From Jiangella muralis (lineage in GTDB: Bacteria > Actinomycetota > Actinomycetes > Jiangellales > Jiangellaceae), in contig NZ_LFXL01000031.1 in NCBI RefSeq assembly GCF_001270745.1, forward strand, positions 1 through 64,000: a stretch of 64,000 nt of DNA, in the 5' to 3' direction. The notes under the pieces were generated by a model. The model was not told where the DNA came from, made no database searches, and was given only the letters and a program-made list of their open reading frames with translations. This document shows, one piece after another, positions 988 to 23,889 of the stretch. The position numbers and the translations under genes are program-made. Position 1 is the first letter of the stretch. The number at the start of each line of letters is the position of its first letter.

Positions 988-3900
988 TCAGGTGGTGAAG
1001 TAGACGGCCTCGGGGTGGTGCACCACCAAGGCATCGGTCGACTGCTCGGGGTGCAGCTGGTGTTCCGCCGAGAGCGTGACCCCGATCCGGCCGGGGTCGA
1101 GCAGCGCGACGACCTTCTCGCGGTCGCGCAGGTCGGGGCAGGCCTCGTAGCCCAGCGAGTACCGGGCGCCGCGGTACCCCAGCCGGAAGAACTCGGTGAC
1201 GTCGTCGGCGTCCTCGGCCGCGACGGACCCGCCGCCGGGCAGCCGCAGCTCCTGGCGGACCCGGCGGTGCCAGTACTCGGCCAGCGCCTCGGTGAGCTGG
1301 ACCCCGAGCCCGTGCACCTCGAGGTAGTCGCGATAGGCGTCCGCGGCGAACAGCTCGTTGGCGAAGTCGGCGATCGGCTGCCCCATCGTCACCAGCTGCA
1401 GCGGCAGCACGTCCACCCGGCCCGAGCTCACGGCCAGGTCGCGGGGACGGAAGTAGTCGGCCAGGCACAGCCGCCGGTCCCGGCGCTGCCGCGGGAAGGT
1501 GAAGCGGCACCGTTCGCCGGCGTCCGGCGCCGGAGCGTCCAGCACGACGAGGTCGTCGCCCTCGGAGACGCACGGGAGGTAGCCGTACACGACCGCGGCG
1601 TGCGCGACGACGCCCCGAGTCGTCAGCTCGTCCAGCCAGTACCGCAGCCGCGGCCGGCCTTCGGTCTCGACCAGCTCCTCGTACCCGGGGCCCTCGCCCG
1701 CCCGGGCGCCGCGCAGCCCCCACTGGCCGAGGAACGTGGCGCGCTCGTCCAGCAGTGCCGCGTACTCGGCCAGCGCGATGCCGCGCACCACCCGGGTGCC
1801 CCAGAACGGCGGCTCGGGGACGGGGACGTCGGCGGCGACGTCGGACCGGCCGCCGGGCGGCTGGGCCGCCTCCTGCTCGGCCCGGCGCGCCTCGGCGAGC
1901 TGCTTCGACCGCTGCCGGCGGGCGCGTCGTTCGGCGCGTTTGGCCTCGGCCTCCGGGTCGGCCTCGACGACGCCGCCCCGCTTGCGCTTCATGATGGAGT
2001 CCATCAGCCGCAGGCCCTCGAAGGCGTCGCGGGCGTAGCTGACCTCGCCCTTGTAGACCGAGGCGAGGTCGTCCTCGACGAACGTGCGGTTCAGCGCCGC
2101 ACCGCCCAGCAGCACGGGCCAGGTCTCGGCCACGCCGCGCGCGTTCATCTCCTCGAGGTTCTCCTTCATGACCACCGTCGACTTCACCAGCAGCCCGGAC
2201 ATGCCGACGGCGTCGGCCCGGTGCTCGCTCGCCGCGTCGAGGATCGCGCCCACCGGCTGCTTGATGCCGAGGTTGACCACGTCGTAGCCGTTGTTGGAGA
2301 GGATGATGTCGACGAGGTTCTTGCCGATGTCGTGCACGTCGCCCTTGACCGTCGCCAGCACGATCCGGCCCTTCCCGCCGGAGTCGTCCTTCTCCATGTG
2401 CGGTTCCAGGTGCGCCACCGCCGCCTTCATGACCTCGGCGGACTGCAGCACGAACGGCAGCTGCAGCTGGCCCGACCCGAACAACTCGCCGACCGTCCTC
2501 ATGCCGGACAGCAGCGTGTCGTTGACGATCTCCAGCGGCGGCCGCTCCCGCATGGCCGCGTCGAGATCGGCCTCGAGGCCGTTGCGCTCGCCGTCGACGA
2601 TGCGCCGCTCCAACCGCTCCCCCAGCGGCAGCCGGGCCAGCTCCTCGGCCCGGGTCTCCCGGTTGGACGCGGCGGTGGCGCCCTCGAACAGCTCCATGAA
2701 CCGCTGCAGCGGGTCGTACCCCTCGCGCCGCCGGTCGTAGATCAGGTCGAGGGCGACCGCACGCTGCTCGTCCGGGATCCGCGACATCGGCAGGATCTTC
2801 GAGGCGTGCACGATGGCCGTCGTCAGGCCGGCCTCGACGCACTCGTGCAGGAAGACGGAGTTGAGCACCTGCCGGGCGGCGGGGTTCAGGCCGAACGAGA
2901 CGTTGGACACGCCCAGCGTCGTCTGCACGGCCGGGTACCGGTCCCGCAGCCGGCGGATCGCCTCGATCGTCTCGGCCGCGTCGCGGCGGACCTCCTCCTG
3001 ACCCGTCGAGATCGGGAAGGTCAGGGTGTCGACGATGATGTCGTCGAGGGCGAGCCCCCAGTTCGCGGTGAGGTCCTCGATCAGCCGCGAGGCCACGCGC
3101 ACCTTCCAGTCCGCCGTCCGCGCCTGGCCCTCCTCGTCGATGCAGAGGGCGACGACGGCGGCGCCGTGCTCCGCGGCGACGCGCATCGCGCGCTGGAACC
3201 GCGAGTCCGGCCCGTCACCGTCCTCGTAGTTCACCGAGTTGATCACGCAGCGGCCGCCGAGGCGTTCCAGGCCCGCCTCGAGCACCGCCGGTTCGGTGGA
3301 GTCGAGCATCACCGGCAGCGTCGACGCCGTGGCCAGCCGGTACGCCAGCGTGTCCATGTCGGCGACGCCGTCCCGGCCGACGTAGTCGACGCACAGGTCC
3401 ATCAGGTGGGCGCCGTCGCGGGTCTGCGCCCGGGCGATCTCGACGCAGTCGTCCCACCTCTCGTCCGCCATCGCCGTCCGGAACGCCTTGGAGCCGTTCG
3501 CGTTGGTCCGCTCGCCGATCACCAGCACGCTGGTGTCCTGGCGGAACGGCACGCTCTGGTAGACGGATGCGACGCCGGCCTCGCGCTCCGGCGAGCGCTC
3601 GGCCGGGGGCAGGCCGTCCACCGCGGCCACGACGGCCCGCAAGTGCTCGGGCGTCGTGCCGCAACAGCCGCCCACCAGCCGGGCTCCGTGGTCGCGGACG
3701 AACCCGGCGAGCGCCGCGGCGAGCTGGTCCGGGCCGAGCGGGTAGACCGCGCCGTCCGGGCCGAGCTCCGGCAGCCCCGCGTTCGGCATGACCGAGATCG
3801 GCACCCGGGCGTGGCGGGCCAGGTAGCGCAGGTGCTCGCCCATCTCGGCCGGTCCCGTGGCGCAGTTCATCCCGATCAGGTCGACGCCCAGCGGTTCCAG

Positions 3901-4530
3901 CGCCGTCACGGCCGCGCCGATCTCGCTGCCGACCAGCATGGTGCCGGTGGTCTCGACGGTGACCTGGACGACGATCGGGACCTCGTGGCCCGCCGCCCGC
4001 ATCGCCCGCTTCGCGCCCAGGATCGCCGCCTTCGCCTGCAGCAGGTCCTGGCTGGTCTCGACGAGGACGGCGTCGATGCCGCCGGCCAGCATGCCGGCGA
4101 CCTGCTCGGCGTAGGCGTCGCGGAGGTGGGCGTAGCGGACGTGGCCGAGGGTCGGCAGCTTCGTGCCCGGCCCGACCGAGCCGAGGACGAACCGCGGCCG
4201 GTCCGGGGTGGCGAACTCGTCGGCCGTCTCGCGGGCCAGCCGGGCGCCGGCCTCGGCCAGCTCGCCGATCCGCCCGGCGATGTCGTACTCGGCGAGGTTG
4301 GCCCAGTTGGCGCCGAAGGTGTTCGTCTCGACGAGGTCGGAGCCGGCCTCGTAGTAGGCCCGGTGCACCGACCGCACGACGTCGGGGCGAGTGACGTTCA
4401 GGATCTCGTTGCACCCCTCGAGCCCGACGAAGTCGTCCAGCCCGAGGTCGTGGCCCTGCAGCATGGTGCCCATGGCGCCGTCGGCCACGAGCACCCGCCG
4501 GTCAAGGGCCTCGATGAAGGTCTCGGTCAC
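988..4530 (-). CDS. metH: Cobalamin-dependent methionine synthase (GTG start)
   Basis: Transfers a methyl group from 5-methyltetrahydrofolate through cobalamin to homocysteine, giving methionine. All four MetH modules are present in 1180 residues, close to the usual 1150-1230. The homocysteine domain has zinc ligands Cys223 (MNCATGP) and Cys289/Cys290 (GGCCGTTPEH). The pterin domain lies at about 325-620. The cobalamin domain carries DVHDIG at 731-736 with the cobalt-ligand His733. The C-terminal activation domain has YSLGYEACPD. The GTG at 4530 is chosen because VTETFIEALDRRVLVADGAM is the normal N-terminus and GAGAGGGG precedes it; the frame stays open far upstream but without homology. It lies 11 nt after adoK and 21 nt before ahcY. 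The gap is too short for a cobalamin riboswitch. Confidence 0.97.
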   Translation of the reverse strand: MTETFIEALDRRVLVADGAMGTMLQGHDLGLDDFVGLEGCNEILNVTRPDVVRSVHRAYYEAGSDLVETNTFGANWANLAEYDIAGRIGELAEAGARLARETADEFATPDRPRFVLGSVGPGTKLPTLGHVRYAHLRDAYAEQVAGMLAGGIDAVLVETSQDLLQAKAAILGAKRAMRAAGHEVPIVVQVTVETTGTMLVGSEIGAAVTALEPLGVDLIGMNCATGPAEMGEHLRYLARHARVPISVMPNAGLPELGPDGAVYPLGPDQLAAALAGFVRDHGARLVGGCCGTTPEHLRAVVAAVDGLPPAERSPEREAGVASVYQSVPFRQDTSVLVIGERTNANGSKAFRTAMADERWDDCVEIARAQTRDGAHLMDLCVDYVGRDGVADMDTLAYRLATASTLPVMLDSTEPAVLEAGLERLGGRCVINSVNYEDGDGPDSRFQRAMRVAAEHGAAVVALCIDEEGQARTADWKVRVASRLIEDLTANWGLALDDIIVDTLTFPISTGQEEVRRDAAETIEAIRRLRDRYPAVQTTLGVSNVSFGLNPAARQVLNSVFLHECVEAGLTTAIVHASKILPMSRIPDEQRAVALDLIYDRRREGYDPLQRFMELFEGATAASNRETRAEELARLPLGERLERRIVDGERNGLEADLDAAMRERPPLEIVNDTLLSGMRTVGELFGSGQLQLPFVLQSAEVMKAAVAHLEPHMEKDDSGGKGRIVLATVKGDVHDIGKNLVDIILSNNGYDVVNLGIKQPVGAILDAASEHRADAVGMSGLLVKSTVVMKENLEEMNARGVAETWPVLLGGAALNRTFVEDDLASVYKGEVSYARDAFEGLRLMDSIMKRKRGGVVEADPEAEAKRAERRARRQRSKQLAEARRAEQEAAQPPGGRSDVAADVPVPEPPFWGTRVVRGIALAEYAALLDERATFLGQWGLRGARAGEGPGYEELVETEGRPRLRYWLDELTTRGVVAHAAVVYGYLPCVSEGDDLVVLDAPAPDAGERCRFTFPRQRRDRRLCLADYFRPRDLAVSSGRVDVLPLQLVTMGQPIADFANELFAADAYRDYLEVHGLGVQLTEALAEYWHRRVRQELRLPGGGSVAAEDADDVTEFFRLGYRGARYSLGYEACPDLRDREKVVALLDPGRIGVTLSAEHQLHPEQSTDALVVHHPEAVYFTT

Positions 4531-4541
4531 GCGGTCCCCTC

Positions 4542-5522
4542 TCAGGCGGCGGGCAGGAACGGCAGGATCTCGGCCGCGGCGTCGTCGCCGTAGGCGTCGG
4601 CCATGCGGCGGTGGAAGGCCACGGAGTCGACCAGGTACTCCTGCGGTCCGCGCGCCTCGATGGTGAGGGTGGCGAGCAGGCACCCCGTCTGCATCGCGCG
4701 TTCGAGCGGGACGTCCCACGACAACGCGGCCAGGAACCCGGCCCGGAACGCGTCGCCGATGCCGGTCGGGTCGAGCTCCCGCTTCGCCGGCACACACGGG
4801 ACCACCACCGGCGCGGCGCCGTTCGCCTCCAGGCGCGCGCCGCCGGCGCCCAGCGTCGTCATCCAGCCGCCGACCCGCTCCAGCACGTCCGCGTGCGACC
4901 AGCCGGTCTTCTCGCACAGCAGCCCGGCCTCGTACTCGTTCGTGAACAGGAACCGGGCCCCGGGCACCAGCGACGCGACCTCCTCGCCGCTCATGCGGGC
5001 GATCTGCTGGGAGAAGTCCGCGACGAACGGCAGGCCGAGATCGCGGCACTGCTGGGTGTGCCGGATCATGCCGTCCGGGTCGCTGGCGCCGACGTGGACG
5101 AGGTCGAGTCCCCCGGCCCGCTCGGCGACGGCGCCCAGATCGATCTCGCCGGTCTCGGCCATGGCGCCGGAGTAGAACGAGGCGATCTGGTTGTTCATGC
5201 TGTCGCTCGTGCACAGGTAGCGCGCCGTGTGCCGTTCGTCGGACACCCGGACGTGCGAGGTGTCGACGCCGTTGAGCTCCAGCCAGGAGCGGTACTCGTC
5301 GAAGTCCGGGCCGACGGCGCCGACCAGGAGCGGGCGCAATCCCAGCGCGCCCATGCCGTAGGAGATGTTGGCCGCCACGCCGCCGCGGCGGACGTCGAGC
5401 CGGTCGATGAGGAAGGACAGCGACACCTGCTCGAGCCGGTCGGCGACGAGCTGGTCGGTGAAGCGTCCGGGGAACACCATCAGGTAGTCGGTGGCGATGG
5501 AGCCGGTCACGGCGACGCGCAT
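4542..5522 (-). CDS. adoK: Adenosine kinase, PfkB/ribokinase family
   Basis: Phosphorylates adenosine to AMP with ATP. The 326 residues resemble the mycobacterial AdoK type: an N-terminus MRVAVTGSIATDYLMVFPGRF, a substrate loop RRGGVAANIS, and the C-terminal PfkB signature DPTGIGDAFRAGF with the catalytic Asp in GIGD. The ATG at 5522 has GAGGAGG upstream. It sits between metK and metH in the betaine operon (gaps of 20 and 11 nt). This fits removal of the adenosine that AhcY releases, pulling SAH hydrolysis forward. A general sugar kinase is the main alternative, but the neighbours and the N-terminal motif favour adenosine. Confidence 0.88.
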   Translation of the reverse strand: MRVAVTGSIATDYLMVFPGRFTDQLVADRLEQVSLSFLIDRLDVRRGGVAANISYGMGALGLRPLLVGAVGPDFDEYRSWLELNGVDTSHVRVSDERHTARYLCTSDSMNNQIASFYSGAMAETGEIDLGAVAERAGGLDLVHVGASDPDGMIRHTQQCRDLGLPFVADFSQQIARMSGEEVASLVPGARFLFTNEYEAGLLCEKTGWSHADVLERVGGWMTTLGAGGARLEANGAAPVVVPCVPAKRELDPTGIGDAFRAGFLAALSWDVPLERAMQTGCLLATLTIEARGPQEYLVDSVAFHRRMADAYGDDAAAEILPFLPAA

Positions 5523-5542
5523 GGCAGGGCCTCCTCGGGTGA

Positions 5543-6739
5543 TCAGGCTCGGGCGGCTTCGCGCAACTGGTCGACCCGCCCGGTCCGCTCCCAGGGGAGA
5601 TCGAGGTCCGGGCGGCCGAAGTGCCCGTAGGCGGCGGTCGGCGCGTAGATAGGACGCAGCAGGTCGAGGTCGCGGATGATCGCCGCCGGCCGCAGGTCGA
5701 ACACCTCCTCGATGGCCAGCTGGATCTTGGCCGGGTCGACGGCCTCGGTGCCGAACGTCTCGACGAACAGCCCGACCGGCGCGGCCTTCCCGATGGCGTA
5801 GGCCACCTGCACCTCGATCCGTCCGGCCAGGCCCGCGGCGACGGCGTTCTTCGCCACCCACCGCATCGCGTACGCCGCCGACCGGTCAACCTTGGACGGG
5901 TCCTTGCCGGAGAACGCGCCGCCGCCGTGCCGGGCCATCCCGCCGTACGTGTCGACGATGATCTTGCGCCCGGTCAGCCCGGCGTCGCCGACCGGCCCGC
6001 CGACCACGAACCGGCCAGTCGGGTTGACCAGCAGGCGGGTGTCCGCCGTGTCCAGCTCGACGCCGGCCAGCACCGGCGCCATGACGTGATCGTGCACGTC
6101 CACGGCCAGCATCCGGTCCAGGTCGATGTCCGCGGCGTGCTGGCTCGACACCACGACGGTGTCGAGCCGCACCGGACGCTCGCCCTCGTACTCGACGGTC
6201 ACCTGCGTCTTGCCGTCCGGCCGCAGGTACGGCAGGACGCCGTCGCGTCGCACCGCCGCGAGCCGGCGGGACAGCCGGTGCGCCAGCGCGATCGGCAGCG
6301 GCATCAGCTCGGGCGTGTCCGAGCAGGCGTAGCCGAACATCAGCCCCTGGTCGCCCGCGCCCTGGGCGTCGATGGCGTCGGTGGCGCCCTCGACCCGCAA
6401 CTCGTGCGCGGTGTCGACGCCCTGGGCGATGTCGGCGGACTGCGCGTCGATCGCGACGTTCACGCCGCACGACTCCCCGTCGAAACCCTTGGCCGAGGAG
6501 TCGTAGCCGATGCGCAGGATCCGGTCCCGCACGATCGCCGGGATGTCCACGTAGCCGCTGGTGGTCACCTCGCCCGCGACGTGCACCTGCCCGGTCGTGA
6601 TCAGCGTCTCGACGGCGACCCGGGACCGCGGGTCCTGCGCCAGCATCGCGTCCAGGATGGAGTCGCTGATCGCGTCCGCCATCTTGTCCGGGTGGCCCTC
6701 CGTCACCGACTCGCTGGTGAACAGCCGCCGAAAGGTCAT
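5543..6739 (-). CDS. metK: Methionine adenosyltransferase (SAM synthetase)
   Basis: Makes S-adenosylmethionine from methionine and ATP. The 398 residues match the family length. Visible motifs are [19 protein letters not shown] at the N-terminus (methionine/ATP site), [20 protein letters not shown] in the middle, and [20 protein letters not shown] (phosphate-binding glycine loop). The ATG at 6739 overlaps the stop of the upstream methyltransferase by 4 nt (ATGA), so translation is probably coupled, and AAGGAG precedes it. Its place directly behind a SAM-consuming methyltransferase suggests a pathway-dedicated supply. Whether the genome has a second metK cannot be seen here. Confidence 0.97.
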
Positions 6740-8442
6740 CGCTGCGCTCCTTCTTCGCGTCGGGCGGTGAAGATCCCCCAGGTCAGCTGCCCGGCCCGGC
6801 CGCCGTCGATCCAGTGCCGCAGGCCGGCCTTCATCCGGACGAGGTAGTCGTCGCCGACCACTCCGTTCAGCTCGGCCGCACGCCGCTCCGTCTCGGCCAG
6901 CACGCGCTGGTAGTGGCTGACCAGGTCGTGCGAGCGGTCGTGGAACTCCACCGACGTCAGGCCGAGGCGGCCGAGCTGGTGGGTGTAGAAGGCCGGCGAG
7001 GCCATCGACTCCAGGTGCAGGCGCTGCAGGATGGGGGCCAGGCTCGCGGCGGACGCGTCGTCGGCGCTCATCGGGTCGGTGAACACCATGACGCCGCCGG
7101 GCCGGAGCACCCGGGCGGCCTCCTCCAGCACGCGCGCCCGGTCACCACTGTGCAGGAACGCGTCCTGCGACCAGACGACGTCGAAGGCCTGGTCCTCGAA
7201 CGGCAGGTCCTCGAACGACCCGTCCACCACGTCGACCAGGCCGTCCAGCCCTTGCGCGGCGGTGAGCCGGCGGTTGCGGTCGTTCTCGACCTCGCTCAGG
7301 TTCAGGCAGGTGACGGAGCAGCCGAACGTGCTCGCCAGGTACCGGCCCGCGCCGCCGTAGCCGGAGCCCACGTCCAGGACGCGCAACTGCGGGCCGACGT
7401 CCACCAGGGCCGCCATCGTCTCGACCGTCCGCCGGCTGGCCACGGCGATGTCCTCGTCCGCCTCGGCGTACGTGCCGACGTGGATGTCCTCGCCACCCCA
7501 GACGGTCGCGTAGAAGCCGTCGGCGTCGGCGGAGTTGTAGTAGTCCCGCGCGGTCTGGACCGCGGCGGAGTAGTGGTCGGTGAGCTCCTCGTCAGGCACG
7601 TAACTCTTCTCCGCGACGTGGATGTAGAAGTCCGGGCGGTCGTCGGCGTACGTCTGCTGGAAGTCGCCGTAGGTCTCCACCTTCTGGAAGCCCACCTCGC
7701 GCATCAGACGTCGCACGTAGTCCTTGCGCAGCGGGAACATGTTCAGGTGGTACTCGGAGCCGTCCGAGAAGCGGTACCGGAACCGCGCCAGCCCCGGGTC
7801 CACGTGCTCCGGCTCGGCCGAGACGTCCTCGCCGCAGTAGTAGTAGGTGTGCTTGCTGGCGAAGCCGTCGTCCAGGATCGCGTCGTAGTTGCGCTGGTCC
7901 AGGATGAGGACGCCGTCGTGCTTCAGCATCGCGTAGAACTCCGCGAGCGCCTTGCGCCGGTCCCGCTCCGAGAACAGGTGGGTGAAGGAGTTCCCCAGGC
8001 ACACGATCGCGTCGTACTCGCCATGGACGTCCCGGTTCAGCCACCGCCAGTCCGCGTGCACGACCCGCAGGATGTGGCCGCCGTGCGTCAGGCCGTTCGC
8101 GAACGCCCTGGCCAGCATGTCGGGGCTGCCGTCCGCACTGACCGTCTCGAACCCCTCTTCCAGCAGGCGGACGGAGTGGAACCCGGTGCCGGTCGCGACG
8201 TCCAGGACCTTGCGCACCCCACGGGAGCGCAGCTGGTCGATGAAGAAGCTTCCCTCGCTCTCGTAGCGGCGCTTCCAGTCGATCAGCTCGTCCCACTTCT
8301 CGACGAAACTCGCGACATATTCGGCGGTGTAGTGGTCGGTGGCGCGAACCTCGAGTGGATTGTCGCCGAAATCCTGTGGCGCGTCTGGGATCCCCGTGGT
8401 CTCGGCAATGTGTTGAAGGCCCTTCTGGTCACTTCCGGGCAT
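6736..8442 (-). CDS. Fused glycine/sarcosine and sarcosine/dimethylglycine N-methyltransferase
   Basis: Makes glycine betaine, a compatible solute, by three SAM-dependent methylations of glycine through sarcosine and dimethylglycine. The 568 residues hold two class I methyltransferase domains. The first (about 30-275) is GSMT-like with SAM motif VLDVATGTG at 79-87 and NSFTHLF. The second (about 290-568) is SDMT-like with [10 protein letters not shown] at 355-364 and [13 protein letters not shown] fused enzyme of about this length is known from Actinopolyspora halophila; most other organisms have two proteins. The ATG at 8442 has AGGGAG upstream. It is the first gene of the operon and is followed by the complete SAM recycling set. 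Osmotic induction is expected from the pathway but not shown by the sequence. Confidence 0.93.
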
Positions 8443-8890: not shown

Positions 8891-8964
8891 GAACGTCGGT
8901 GGGAGCGCTGTTCGAGCCGCACCAGGCGGCCCGACGGCCACGTCAACGAGGGGAAGTGCCGATC

Positions 8965-9174
8965 ATGGGCTTCGACGAAATCAAGAACAAGGTCACCGAC
9001 ATGCTCTCGGACAACGCTGACAAGGTCGGCGACGGTGTCGACAAGGCCACCGACTTCATCGACGACAAGACCGGCGGCAAGTACAGCGAGCACCTCGAGG
9101 GCGTCGACGACAAGGCCCGCGACCTCATCGACGGCCTCGACGGCGAGAAGGGCGAGGACAACCCGCCCGCCTGA
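8965..9174 (+). CDS. Small MT0933-type antitoxin-like protein
   Basis: A 69-residue acidic protein beginning MGFDEIKNKVTDMLSDNADK and containing FIDDKTGGKYSEHLEGVDDK. This is the layout of the MT0933 antitoxin-like family (short amphipathic helices with a TGGKY core), which is common in actinobacteria and often stress-linked. The molecular function is not established and no toxin gene lies next to it. The ATG at 8965 is chosen over an upstream one at 8899 because a strong GAGGGGAAG ribosome site sits just before it and the family begins there. A SigF-like promoter lies upstream. CsbD-like proteins look similar in composition but lack the TGGKY motif. Confidence 0.72.
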   Translation: MGFDEIKNKVTDMLSDNADKVGDGVDKATDFIDDKTGGKYSEHLEGVDDKARDLIDGLDGEKGEDNPPA

Positions 9175-9210: not shown

Positions 9211-9900
9211 TCAGCCGTGCCGTTCCCAGACGCCGACCAGGTAGCCGACGCCGTACGGGGCGGCGTCGTAGCCCACCTCGGCATCGAACAGCCCGTCGTC
9301 GGCGGCGCCAGCGAGCACCCGCAGTGCCTGGCGCCCCGGCGACCCGGCCTCCGCGTCCGCGTCCGCGTCGAGGCCCAGGAGGCCGCGCGGATCGCCGTCA
9401 CGCAGGGCGGCCGCCAGTGCGGCGTCGTAACGCTCCGCCCGCCCGCGCAGCGCGTCCGGCGTGGTGTCCGCCCGCAGCGGCGAGCCGTCCGCCATCACCA
9501 GCAGCGCCACCCGGTCGGCCCGGTCGGCGAGCCGCCGGCCCAGCTCCACCCCGTCACCGTCGCCCGCGTCGCCGGCCACCGTCGCCGTCGCCACCGGCCC
9601 CTCCCAGCCGTCGCGCTGCAGCAGCCAGGCGCCGACGCTGAGCGAGAGCGGCATCGTCCGGCCCTCTCCGGCGCCGGGGAGCGCGACCGTGACGTCGAGG
9701 CCGTACCCGGCCAGACTGCCCGCCCGCCCCGCCTCGTCGGCCGTCGTCTCACCCGGCCCGACGACGACCAGGAGGTCCGGGCTGGCCGCCCGCAGGTCGT
9801 CCAGTGCGGACCAGCAGGCCGCCCGGACGTCGTCCATCCGGGCGTCGTCAGAGGCCACCATAAGCGGCGGATACGGGCAGATCGCAGCGGCGATGAGCAC
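9211..9900 (-). CDS. Class III extradiol-dioxygenase-fold protein (GTG start)
   Basis: 229 residues starting LIAAAICPYPPLMV, with VVVGPGETT and a C-terminal APYGVGYLVGVWERHG. These are features of the conserved actinobacterial proteins annotated as class III extradiol dioxygenase subunit B-like. In related genomes such a gene tends to lie in the miaB/miaA/dapF neighbourhood; here it is 12 kb from miaB. True dioxygenase activity is doubtful and the substrate is unknown. The GTG at 9900 gives the expected N-terminus; the ribosome site is weak. It converges on the MT0933-type gene and diverges from the repeat protein at 9957, whose start is only 56 nt away. Confidence 0.7.
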   Translation of the reverse strand: MLIAAAICPYPPLMVASDDARMDDVRAACWSALDDLRAASPDLLVVVGPGETTADEAGRAGSLAGYGLDVTVALPGAGEGRTMPLSLSVGAWLLQRDGWEGPVATATVAGDAGDGDGVELGRRLADRADRVALLVMADGSPLRADTTPDALRGRAERYDAALAAALRDGDPRGLLGLDADADAEAGSPGRQALRVLAGAADDGLFDAEVGYDAAPYGVGYLVGVWERHG

Positions 9901-9956: not shown

Positions 9957-12185
9957 ATGTCGGATATGTTCGACGCCGACAACAGCTTCCTCCTCACCGT
10001 CGCCGGTGTGGTGCTGCTGCTCGGCCTCGGCACCGTCATCGCCTGGCTCCCCGCGCGCCGCCACGACACCGCCGGACTCCCGGCCCGGCTGCTGGTGACG
10101 ACCGGCCTGATCATGGGCATCGCCGACCTCGGCGGCCTCGGCAGCGTGCTCGGCTTCGCGCTGGCGGCGATGGGCGGGCTGATCGCGTGGGAGGCCCAGC
10201 CGCCGCCCGAGGTTCCGCGCCCGCACCGCGGCGGCATCGTGGTGGCGGCCGTTCTCGCCGGACTCGCCGCGCTGGGGACGTTCGAGGGCTGGGGCCCACT
10301 GGTCCGGCTCCCGTCCGAGCTCCGCGCCGTCGGCACCCTCGTCGTCGGGGTGACGGGGGCGCTGGCGACCATGGCCATCGCCGATCGGGCCCGGGTCCGC
10401 CTGCGGGTGGCCGTCCGGCGCCGCTTCGGCCCGCCCCAGCGACCGTCCCCGCCATCGGCCCCGCCAGCCACCCTGCCATCGGCCCAGCCGGCGGACCTGC
10501 CCGCTGTCGGCCCAGCGTCCATCGGTGCTGCCGCTGCTCCCGCGCCGGTCGGTGCTGCTGGCGCCGCGAGTGTCGTCGCGGCGCACCAGGCGCCCAGCGA
10601 GCCCACTCCCCCACCGGCGGCAGTTGAATCGGCGACCGCCGAGCCGCAGCCGGCCGAGGCGAGTCCTGCGGCCGCCGAACCGGAACCGCCGCCGGCCGAG
10701 CGCGAACCTGTCGCACCAGTGCCCGAGACTCAGGCACCGCCCGCCAGCCCGGCCCAGCCGCCGCCCGTCACCCCGGAGCCGGAGCCGCAGGCGCGGTCCG
10801 CAAGCGTCGCCGCGCAGTCGCCGAGCCGCCCGTCCGGCGTCATCCGGCGCCGCTACGCACCGCCACGCACGCGAGACGCGTCGCCGGAGGCGGCCGAGGC
10901 AGAGGCGGAGGCGGCCGAGGCAGAGCCGGCGGCAGCCCAGGCAGAGCCGGCGGCAGCCCAGGCAGAGCCGGCGGCAGCCGAGGCAGAGCCGGCGGAGCCG
11001 CGGGGCCGCCATCGCGAACCCCCGGCGCCGGCCGAGACCGCCGGGTCCGGGTGGACCCGGCTCCGCGCCGCGGTCGCGCACCGGCTCGGCGGCGCACGAC
11101 AGCAGGCCGAGTCCGCCGCACCCGCCGCGCCCGCCACCGCACCGCTCGCGTCCACCGAACCGGCCGGCGCCGAGGCGGCGCCGACCGGCCGCACGCGCTC
11201 GAGACTGGAGTTGCGCCGTGCCGTCAGCCGGCGCATCGCGGCAGCTTGGCCCGACCCGGCCGACGACGCCGGCGAAGCTGGGGCCGGGAGCGAGCAGCCC
11301 GTCGCGGCCGGGCCGGCCGTGCCGTGGCGGACCCGGATCCGGACCGCCTTCCGCCGCGCCACGTCCGCACCACCGGAGCCGGACGCCCGGCCGGCGCCCA
11401 TCGCCGAGCCGGCGCCCGTCGCCCAGTCGGAGCCCACGCCGGAGCCCACTCCCGAGCCGGCCGAGGAGCAGACCGGGCCGGCGTGGGTGCGTGCCCGCGA
11501 CACCCTGCGGCGCCTGACCACGACGCGACTGGAGCAGGCCGAGCAGAAGCCGGCCGGGCCGGAGCCGAAGGCCGAGCCGCGCGAGGAGCAGAGCGGACCG
11601 GCGTGGGTCCGGGCCCGCGACGCGCTGCGCAGGCTGACGACCACGCGACTCGAGCAGCTCGGCGAGGACCGGCCGGCCGATCCGCCGCCGCCGGCCGAGG
11701 AGCCCGGTCCGCTGCACGACGCCCAGGAGGTCGTGCCGTGGGCCCGCCGCGACGCGCTGCGACGGCTGACGGTGATCAGGCTGGAGCGGCTCGACGAGGA
11801 CGAGAGCACGAACGGCCAGCAGACCACGCCGACGATCCGGAAGAGCAAGCCGCCGAAGGGATCGGGGACGGCGCCGGGCAAGGGCGGCGGCTCGGTGCCA
11901 CGCCGCGTCGAGCCGGCCGGCCCGGTCGAGCCGAGCGGCCCGGTCGAGCCGAGCGGCCAGCTGGACAGCCGGCCCGGACCGGCGCAGTCCACGACACCGC
12001 GCGAGCCCTCGCACGACGCCGGCCCGCCGTGGGGACGGCGGTTGCGGGTGAACGGGGCGGAACTGCCGCCTCCCCCGCCGCCACCGCCGGTGGCCGCGAA
12101 GCAGCGCGCGCCGGTACGGGTGGTCGGTGTGCCGCCCGGCACGCCGCCGCCGCCTCAGCCTCCCCCGCCGCCACCCGCCGCCTGA
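9957..12185 (+). CDS. Unrecognised membrane protein with basic repeats and proline-rich tail
   Basis: Function unknown. The first ~150 residues hold four hydrophobic segments (around 11-33, 45-76, 88-108 and 120-140), then the basic RARVRLRVAVRRRF. The remaining ~590 residues are low-complexity, rich in Pro, Ala and Glu. Set in this tail are six related basic amphipathic units at about residues 363, 412, 455, 507, 547 and 592; the clearest are GPAWVRARDTLRRLTTTRLEQ and GPAWVRARDALRRLTTTRLEQ. A seven-residue AEPAAAQ repeat lies near 320. The protein ends in two proline runs of 6-7 residues. No ribosome site precedes the ATG at 9957, so it may be leaderless, or start at the next ATG (9966). Long antisense frames here are high-GC shadows. 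The tail could bind DNA, membrane or partner proteins. Confidence 0.7.
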   Translation: MSDMFDADNSFLLTVAGVVLLLGLGTVIAWLPARRHDTAGLPARLLVTTGLIMGIADLGGLGSVLGFALAAMGGLIAWEAQPPPEVPRPHRGGIVVAAVLAGLAALGTFEGWGPLVRLPSELRAVGTLVVGVTGALATMAIADRARVRLRVAVRRRFGPPQRPSPPSAPPATLPSAQPADLPAVGPASIGAAAAPAPVGAAGAASVVAAHQAPSEPTPPPAAVESATAEPQPAEASPAAAEPEPPPAEREPVAPVPETQAPPASPAQPPPVTPEPEPQARSASVAAQSPSRPSGVIRRRYAPPRTRDASPEAAEAEAEAAEAEPAAAQAEPAAAQAEPAAAEAEPAEPRGRHREPPAPAETAGSGWTRLRAAVAHRLGGARQQAESAAPAAPATAPLASTEPAGAEAAPTGRTRSRLELRRAVSRRIAAAWPDPADDAGEAGAGSEQPVAAGPAVPWRTRIRTAFRRATSAPPEPDARPAPIAEPAPVAQSEPTPEPTPEPAEEQTGPAWVRARDTLRRLTTTRLEQAEQKPAGPEPKAEPREEQSGPAWVRARDALRRLTTTRLEQLGEDRPADPPPPAEEPGPLHDAQEVVPWARRDALRRLTVIRLERLDEDESTNGQQTTPTIRKSKPPKGSGTAPGKGGGSVPRRVEPAGPVEPSGPVEPSGQLDSRPGPAQSTTPREPSHDAGPPWGRRLRVNGAELPPPPPPPPVAAKQRAPVRVVGVPPGTPPPPQPPPPPPAA
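10918..10993 (+). repeat. 21-nt tandem repeat inside the repeat-protein gene
   Basis: The unit AGGCAGAGCCGGCGGCAGC recurs every 21 nt about three and a half times. It encodes AEPAAAQ heptads and keeps the frame. The near-identity at DNA level points to recent slippage expansion. Confidence 0.85.
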
Positions 12186-22380: not shown

Positions 22381-23889
22381 TCAGGCGTGGCCGCAGGCGG
22401 GCGCGGCGTCGGCGACGGGCAGGGCGGCCGGAGCGCCCACCGTCGGCATGCCGAGCAGCACCCCGGGCGCGGCCGCCCCCGGCGCGGCCGCGGCCGGCGC
22501 CGTCGTCGCCCGCTCGTAGGCGTCGCCGGCGCGGGTGCGGCGCAGGTCGTACGTCGGCCCGTCGGCCACGAGGTGGTGCGGCGCGGCGTAGCTGACCTGC
22601 ACCGTCACCATGTCGCCCGGCCGCGGACGCTCGGCGCCGCCGGGCACCGCGAAGTGCACCAGGCGGTTGTCCCGGGCCCGGCCGGACAGCCGGTGCGTGG
22701 CGCCGTCCTTGCGGCCCTCGCCGTCGGCGACCAGCACCTCGACGTCGCGGCCGACGAAGGCGCGGGACTCGGCCCAGGCCACCTCCTCCACGAGCGAGGC
22801 CAGCCGTTGGTAGCGCTCGCGCACCACCTCGGGCGGGACCTGGTCGTCCATGGTGGCCGCCGGGGTGCCGGGGCGCTTGGAGTACTGGAACGTGAACGCC
22901 GACGCGAACCGGGCCTCGCGGACGACATGCAGGGTGTCCTCGAAGTCGGCGTCGGTCTCGCCCGGGAAGCCGACGATGATGTCGGTGGTGATGGCGGCGT
23001 GCGGCATGGCGTCGCGCACCTTCTCGACGATGCCGAGGTAGCGCTCCTGCCGGTACGAGCGGCGCATGGCCCGCAGCACGCGGTCGGACCCGGACTGCAG
23101 CGGCATGTGCAGCTGCGGCATGACCGTCGGCGTGGACGCCATGGCGTCGATGACGTCGTCGGTGAAGTCGCGCGGGTGCGGGCTGGTGAACCGGACCCGC
23201 TCGAGCCCGTCGACCGCGCCGACGGTGCGCAGCAGCTTGCCGAACGCGTACCGGTCGCCGAACTCGACCCCGTAGGCGTTGACGTTCTGGCCGAGCAGCG
23301 TGACCTCGATGACGCCGTCGGCGACCAGCGCCTGCACCTCGGCCAGGATGTCGCCCGGACGGCGGTCGCGCTCGCGCCCACGCAGCGCCGGGACGATGCA
23401 GAACGTGCAGGTGTTGTTGCAGCCGACGCTGACGGCGACCCAGGCGGCGTACGGGCTCTCGCGCCGCGACGGGAGGTCGGACGGGAACGTCTCGAGCGCC
23501 TCGACGATCTCGACCTGCGCCTCCTGCTCGATGCGCGCGCGATCGAGGAGGGCCGGGAGCGAGCCGACGTTGTGGGTGCCGAACACGACGTCGACCCACG
23601 GCGCCCGCCGGGTGATCTCGGTGCGGTCCTTCTGCGCCAGGCACCCGCCGACGGCGATCTGCATGCCGTCGCGGGCCGCCTTGACCGAGGCCAGGTGGCC
23701 GAGGTTGCCGTACAGCTTGTTGTCGGCGTTCTCGCGGACCGCGCAGGTGTTGAGCACGACGACGTCGGCCGTCGCGCCGTCGCCCGCGCGGGCATAGCCC
23801 GCGTCCTCCAGCAGCCCGGACAGCCGCTCGGAGTCGTGGACGTTCATCTGGCACCCGTAGGTGCGGACCTCGTACGTGCGCGCATCCAT
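22381..23889 (-). CDS. miaB: tRNA-2-methylthio-N6-dimethylallyladenosine synthase
   Basis: Radical-SAM methylthiotransferase that adds a methylthio group to i6A37 of tRNAs. The 502 residues hold the N-terminal UPF0004 domain ([32 protein letters not shown], giving three cluster-binding Cys), the radical-SAM motif CNNTCTFC at about 165-172 with [11 protein letters not shown], and a C-terminal TRAM domain. The ATG at 23889 ([12 protein letters not shown]) matches the family start; a longer frame to 23928 lacks support. It lies in the conserved recA-recX-gluABCD-miaB neighbourhood, here interrupted by peptidase and signalling genes. The C-terminal ~40 residues are a nonconserved Ala/Pro tail. 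Confidence 0.96.

Follow-up and report, generated by a model that had tools for sequence, protein, structure and literature searches.

We found in Jiangella muralis a gene whose product joins a membrane domain to a Pro/Ala-rich tail of ~580 residues carrying a series of short basic helices, and its best reading, offered tentatively and a little short of an even chance, is a scaffold of the "sticker and linker" type, anchored in the membrane, on which a putative protein partner would be clustered. The kept order of the units, their specific invariant residues, the freely varying linkers and the placement of the predicted helices are together what one would expect if the tail were a chain of helices on which a folded partner docks. 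The gene (9957..12185, + strand, in a window of 64,000 nucleotides, the whole stretch of DNA analyzed, from a genome of 7.27 Mb) starts with an ATG at 9957 and its stop codon ends at 12185, giving a product of 742 aa. The layout given in the first-pass annotation (a membrane part, a disordered tail, six basic units, and a polyproline end) was confirmed, and its remark that no known family came to mind is supported: Pfam, NCBIfam, and PDB searches found none, and with the full protein neither Pfam nor NCBIfam yields any family at E <= 1. The plasmid collection held no match, and the portions of the literature retrieved on Jiangella and disordered membrane proteins, on membrane-anchored disordered scaffolds, and on lineage-specific disordered actinobacterial tails contain no description of this protein.

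The plus-strand frame is the coding frame, judging from the G+C content per codon position (0.82/0.67/0.88) and from the differences between the tail and those of two close relatives, which number 96/76/166 and 96/71/158 at codon positions 1/2/3, an excess at position 3. The same figures contradict an 866-residue antisense ORF as the coding frame and, together with the dN/dS values given below, rule out that the six-unit tail is a chance or noncoding feature; constraint thus acts on the gene at the protein level.

The membrane domain (aa 1 to 157; 9957..10427, +) had been credited with four membrane segments; AlphaFold2 suggests instead five long helices (residues 7-35, 40-56, 61-79, 91-110, and 120-157; mean pLDDT, 67.8), and the full-length model returns the same five with slightly shifted ends. 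We found this domain in all 12 genomes of the genus and in 21 of the 22 genomes of the family Jiangellaceae, the single genome without it being an 81% complete assembly; in five named Jiangella relatives from the genome collection it is 80 to 88% identical to that of the window protein. A class-wide profile search of 393 genomes, in which 9 first-look candidates were scored per genome, recovered it in those 21 of 22 family genomes and in 1 of 371 others, this lone match being borderline (E 7.3e-4 over 47 columns), so that the domain appears to be confined to the family. Among 17 members scanned, the best Pfam value was E 0.0022 (DUF998, in 1 member), which was not accepted as a family, and the best NCBIfam value was E 0.035 (2 members). 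A PDB profile search with the domain gave 0 matches at E <= 1, and Foldseek gave none at E <= 0.001, all of its matches being weak (best E, 0.5). An older family was also sought by reading the DNA next to miaB in 16 further genomes from the class for a positional counterpart; the best hmmsearch match (E = 0.021, a short frame) was not accepted. In the assembly of one member of the genus (L049, on contig G009:C259), a stretch of the domain appears twice, around a single unknown residue, which probably marks an assembly break.

The tail has a much narrower distribution than the domain that carries it. It is present in 10 of the 12 genomes of the genus and absent from two; the complete tailed proteins number seven and range from 686 to 1084 aa (742 in the window), while in G003 and G011 the contig stops within the gene and that of G009 has the domain and the units on separate contigs. 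Units were found in nine of the ten tailed proteins, and in the tenth (G011) the contig ends before units 4 to 6. The two tail-less proteins of the genus measure 165 aa (G004) and 170 aa (G007), their frames stopping soon after the juxtamembrane helix described below; no unit remnants were seen downstream of these genes in the three forward frames, and the unit profiles found nothing better than E = 0.12 in either genome. In the other genera, all 8 proteins readable to their stop (L040 to L047) end just after the last membrane helix, a ninth (G017) being broken by unread bases and excluded from this set. A tree of the membrane domain (19 rows, rooted at the midpoint, with long branches for L043 and L046) placed the nine tailed rows on one side of a branch with support of 97/99, so that one change suffices. 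Since the tail-less rows include all the other genera, a single gain is the simplest history, and in this midpoint-rooted tree the tail is probably a later acquisition. The first-pass annotation had counted homologues lacking the units against its scaffold idea; such homologues do exist, but all of them fall outside the tailed clade.

Within the tail, the annotation had recognized six units of the type WxRxRxxLRR, and all six were found, although unit 2 is without the leading Trp. They lie at residues 366, ~414, 457, 510, 550, and 595. A structure prediction covering the tail, as the annotation had suggested, bore the units out: within the tail, the full-length AlphaFold2 model has helices solely at these six sites (8 tailed sequences; overall pLDDT, 50; about 50 to 77 in the unit blocks; helix placement alone was used). 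Units 1 (helix aa 366-378; 11052..11090, +), 2 (aa 414-430, helix 416-430; 11196..11246, +), and 3 (helix aa 457-469; 11325..11363, +) are defined by this prediction and by their order across the tails, with the alignment as additional evidence for units 2 and 3. Units 4 (helix aa 509-529; 11481..11543, +) and 6 (aa 587-616, helix 594-606; 11715..11804, +) are defined by the prediction, by copy alignment, and by profile search, and unit 5 (helix aa 549-570; 11601..11666, +) by all three and by pair comparison with unit 4, of which it is a close paralogue. A remnant of a seventh unit, WGRRLR (12030..12047, +), was recognized in the alignment, its body missing here and present in relatives; two of these (L030 and L031) continue DSVRGRF... 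after WGRRLR, and in the window this looks like an in-frame loss. Upstream of the units lies a further conserved element without a predicted helix, not listed in the first-pass annotation (about aa 279-304, ...SPSRPSGVIRRRYAPPRTR; 10791..10868, +), which holds the same place in the order in all 8 tailed proteins scanned; the tail alignment misaligns L035 at this element.

The elements follow one another as an SRP-like element, units 1, 2, 3, 4/5, 6, and 7, and the polyproline end. The order of the units is identical in 8 of 8 tailed proteins despite variable spacing, five to seven units being matched per relative; the exceptions concern presence (a single copy of units 4/5 in L034, and units 2 and 3 of L036 not matched by the patterns), and in L035 a contig edge precedes the polyproline end. 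The spacing itself did not hold up so well. It had been given as 40 to 50 residues and is indeed 40 to 53 in the window protein, but neighboring units lie anywhere from 31 to 370 residues apart across the eight tailed proteins, which rules out regular spacing as a design feature; units 4 to 6 alone keep near 45 (39 to 56 apart across the tailed proteins), and distances of 4 to 5 residues in the spacing scan are one unit matched twice. The idea of a multivalent scaffold consequently loses its argument from spacing, whereas the disordered tail with its discrete conserved beads fits it. Units 4 and 5 (at 510 and 550), which had been noted as nearly identical, do share 22 of 24 residues. They share only 60 of 72 bases, however, so that they are an old pair kept alike and a recent duplication is ruled out.

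Selection distinguishes the units clearly from the sequence between them. In five relatives compared (from 7 other tailed proteins aligned), dN/dS is 0.18 to 0.22 for the membrane domain, 0.17 to 0.31 for the units, and 0.44 to 0.71 for the linkers, whose columns contain 37 to 53% gaps; the value of the units exceeds that of the membrane domain in 4 of the 5 comparisons. The units are under purifying selection, at a level of constraint that comes close to that of the membrane domain, while the linkers are not constrained to this degree. A functionless low-complexity tail, drifting through slippage in high-G+C repeats, would agree with Pro/Ala-rich linkers of very variable length and with the restriction of the tail to part of one genus, but it is already contradicted by the strong purifying selection on the units and on the end module and by the same unit order in 8 of 8 tails, and we give it hardly any credence. 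Unit 6 is the best conserved, with 23 of 30 columns invariant across 8 proteins (the invariant residues including D, Q, E, V, P, W, A, R, L, T, and I), and in units 4/5 the 15 copies agree at 8 of 25 columns (among them P, W, A, R, D, L, and T); the rows for both were selected with short patterns that themselves prescribe some of the invariant positions, although every one of the 8 proteins had a copy. In several genomes, searching with the profile of units 4/5 finds unit 6 and the reverse (E 3e-5 to 0.04), which suggests that these units are related.

In searches with unit profiles, another of the suggestions made with the first-pass annotation, the strong matches of units 4/5 and unit 6 all fall in this gene. 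Elsewhere in the 22 family genomes the best values were E = 0.054 for units 4/5 and E = 0.0076 for unit 6 (with scoring limited to 150 candidates in each genome, a weak copy could escape), and in a 396-genome sample of the phylum unit 6 was recovered at E <= 1e-4 from its own genome alone (20 candidates scored per genome). One PDB match for each unit profile, at E 1.3 and 0.64, was taken as chance.

The units contain 32% Arg and 1% Lys, against 7.7% Arg and 1.9% Lys in the linkers, the Arg figure of the units being biased upward because the unit patterns themselves demand Arg. Arg-rich helices of this kind might bind RNA or DNA and so hold mRNA, ribosomes, or the nucleoid at the membrane, an explanation that we regard as possible but unlikely. 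It draws on this Arg enrichment, but the conservation of W, D, T, and P and the presence of acidic residues near unit 6 argue against it, as does the fact that no nucleic-acid-binding family was found in Pfam or NCBIfam; the Arg density of the units, which is presumably lower than that of classical Arg-rich RNA-binding peptides, we also count against it. The chemically specific invariant residues (W, P, D, and T beside Arg) favor a shaped partner over bulk charge, and hence the docking of a protein. A tendency of the conserved positions in units 4/5 to gather on a single face is no more than suggestive (p = 0.07).

Another explanation has the units as basic helices lying on the inner leaflet, with the tail stitched along the membrane. 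Several units have Trp as their first residue and are positively charged overall, they resemble the helix that leaves the membrane, and the net-negative linkers could loop away from anionic lipid. On the other hand, the hydrophobic moment of none of the six units is significant against shuffles (p 0.15 to 0.92), and the best-conserved unit 6 has the lowest lipid-binding score (D factor, 0.21), which makes lipid binding rather improbable to us. Four or five of the six units do lie above their own shuffle mean, with unit 6 below; its net charge is zero over its most amphipathic 18-mer and +4 for the 18-mer from the Pro-Trp start, so that binding by charge alone keeps some likelihood. The proposal of the first-pass annotation that the units bind DNA or the membrane is therefore not favored insofar as it relies purely on charge or amphipathicity, while nucleic acid and lipid both stay as rivals to a protein partner.

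Charge also admits a tail that binds itself. Net charges range from +15 to +26 for the units and from -31 to -4 for the linkers between them, which are thus negative in every one of the 8 tailed proteins (the weakest being those of L036, at -4 over 245 residues), so that basic units might bind acidic linkers, or each other, and form membrane patches. Self-association of this type seems to us distinctly improbable, considering that neither the length nor the sequence of the linkers is held fixed (dN/dS up to 0.71) and that the fixed uncharged residues of the units would be left unexplained.

A likely source for the units lies within the same protein. The last helix of the membrane domain is 38 residues long and continues without interruption into a juxtamembrane basic helix (aa 142-157, ADRARVRLRVAVRRRF; 10380..10427, +), recognized with AlphaFold2 and by profile comparison, which the units resemble. 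A profile of 11 columns, built solely from ten tail-less proteins, gave 3 matches at 7 bits in the window tail, against a mean of 0.06 and a maximum of 1 in 300 shuffles, and 30 matches at >= 7 bits in the eight tails, against shuffled-tail means of 0.06 to 0.2 per tail; the eight tails are related to each other and their matches are not independent. With 300 column-shuffled profiles the mean at 7 bits was 5.3 and the maximum 26, compared with the 30 real matches, and the 21 matches in the eight tails at 9 bits were equaled by 1 of the 300. Measured against the 28 other ORFs of the window, the tails contain 5.2 matches per 1000 aa versus 0.94 (14 matches) at 7 bits, and 3.3 versus 0.2 per 1000 aa at 11 bits. 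Copies of units 1, 2, 4, 5, and 7 in various tails score 8 to 18 bits and other copies lower; in the window protein, units 1 (3.3), 3 (6.4), and 6 (6.9) fall below 7 bits.

These comparisons support descent of the units from the protein's own juxtamembrane helix, or mimicry of it, although the likeness covers 11 columns of an Arg-rich helix and may reflect convergence of short Arg-rich helices. The tail may thus multiply an older docking helix. It is possible, if doubtful, that a one-site membrane protein became a multivalent scaffold within one genus by having its juxtamembrane docking helix copied repeatedly into a newly grown disordered tail. If so, the tail-less species of the same genus would be natural controls for what is gained from multivalency, and the origin of a sticker-and-linker scaffold would be directly open to study.

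In the membrane-anchored scaffold that we favor, the membrane domain would anchor the protein and its last helix would run on as the basic helix. By the positive-inside rule, the Pro/Ala-rich, low-confidence (disordered) tail would lie on the cytoplasmic side. A protein partner would dock on each unit helix, and it would probably be the same one that is met by the single juxtamembrane helix in the tail-less relatives; through copying of that helix the number of binding sites would have risen from about one to about seven, and the multivalent tail would gather or cluster the putative partner at the membrane. Multivalent disordered scaffolds are well known but, to our knowledge, their origin is rarely seen; here tailed and tail-less forms coexist, with the likely source of the stickers still at the membrane exit, and the step from one binding site to many is testable through the natural tails. 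The finding points to a putative membrane-clustered process in these actinobacteria.

Among known systems, the window protein works like EPYC1, PYCO1, or the RNase E tail at most and is a member of none of them. EPYC1 is described as a disordered protein with five evenly spaced helical stickers that bind the Rubisco small subunit, and PYCO1 as having six unevenly distributed helical stickers with a critical Trp (PMC10288592). The window protein resembles both in being a predicted disordered chain with repeated short helical stickers, a likeness in working and not in membership, for they are algal and bind Rubisco whereas it is bacterial and membrane anchored. A RuBisCO large chain (PF00016) had no match in its own genome, while the family was found in 5 of 14 control genomes. 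This also separates it from CsoS2, a carboxysome partner with repeated motifs. CsoS2 is presented as a disordered linker essential for alpha-carboxysome assembly and Rubisco encapsulation (PMC10484944). The C-terminal region of RNase E is reported to be disordered, membrane tethered in Escherichia coli, and equipped with several short linear motifs, including Arg-rich RNA-binding ones, such tails combining Arg-rich motifs with a helix that targets the membrane and, in the case of Pseudomonas, with a region rich in AEPV (PMC11964227). Their use of Arg-rich motifs in disordered regions to hold RNA at the membrane (PMC11964227) is a precedent for the nucleic-acid explanation weighed above. However, RNase E is a ribonuclease tethered by an amphipathic helix, while the anchor of the window protein is a multi-helix membrane domain and no RNase E/G catalytic domain was detected in it (0 Pfam and 0 NCBIfam matches at E <= 1).

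The polyproline end noted in the first-pass annotation proved to be a conserved module (VNGAELPPPPPPPP...RAPVRVVGVPPGTPPPPQ...; 12048..12182, +), identified from the alignment and from a dN/dS of 0.07 to 0.17 (at most 39 codons; five relatives). The motif R-[A/T]-P-V occurs in it in 6 of the 7 complete tailed proteins, as R-A-P-V in the window protein, and L036 has R-A-P-L. The module could serve to arrest the nascent chain, with the membrane domain as a localization signal, so that the protein's own insertion would control the downstream genes. The constraint and the conserved motif speak for this, and RAPV is listed among the query motifs of the ApcA cluster (PMC10987492). Against it, arrest peptides are described as mostly ORFs upstream of secA, secDF, or yidC, with YwcI (100 aa, before sacT) as an exception (PMC10987492). 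Unlike such short Sec/YidC-monitoring ORFs, the window protein has 742 aa (the complete tailed proteins, 686 to 1084 aa) and precedes a cupin and an ABC permease gene; arrest would also leave the six units unexplained, and we find it very improbable.

The neighbors of the gene include none that names a function. The cupin and ABC permease genes lie downstream; by eye, look-alikes of both stand directly downstream of the tail-less gene of G004 (L039), and a permease look-alike with no visible cupin stands downstream of that of G007 (L038). In L043 (from a third genus) and L044 the homologue adjoins a MiaB-like radical SAM gene; the miaB of the window is at 22570-23874, 10 kb from the gene. On the other side, 56 bases separate the start codon from a divergent conserved ORF of 229 aa (9211-9900, -) with no Pfam match at 1e-5 and no NCBIfam match at 1; the name class III extradiol dioxygenase (LigB-like), considered for it, was dropped, as 0 families matched. 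Beside this ORF is a small MT0933-like antitoxin gene (8899-9174, +; probable start, 8965; PF14013, E 1.8e-16), and several relatives have, judged by eye, look-alikes of it in the corresponding position. Farther along, a row of genes at 988-8442 (-) contains a two-domain SAM-dependent methyltransferase (6736-8442), which we take to be similar to a glycine/dimethylglycine betaine synthase, a SAM synthetase-like ORF (5543-6739), and carbohydrate-kinase-like and B12-type homocysteine methyltransferase-like ORFs, these three "-like" ORFs being named by eye. The row is possibly a betaine and methyl-cycle cluster, part of which lies beside the homologous locus in other genera.
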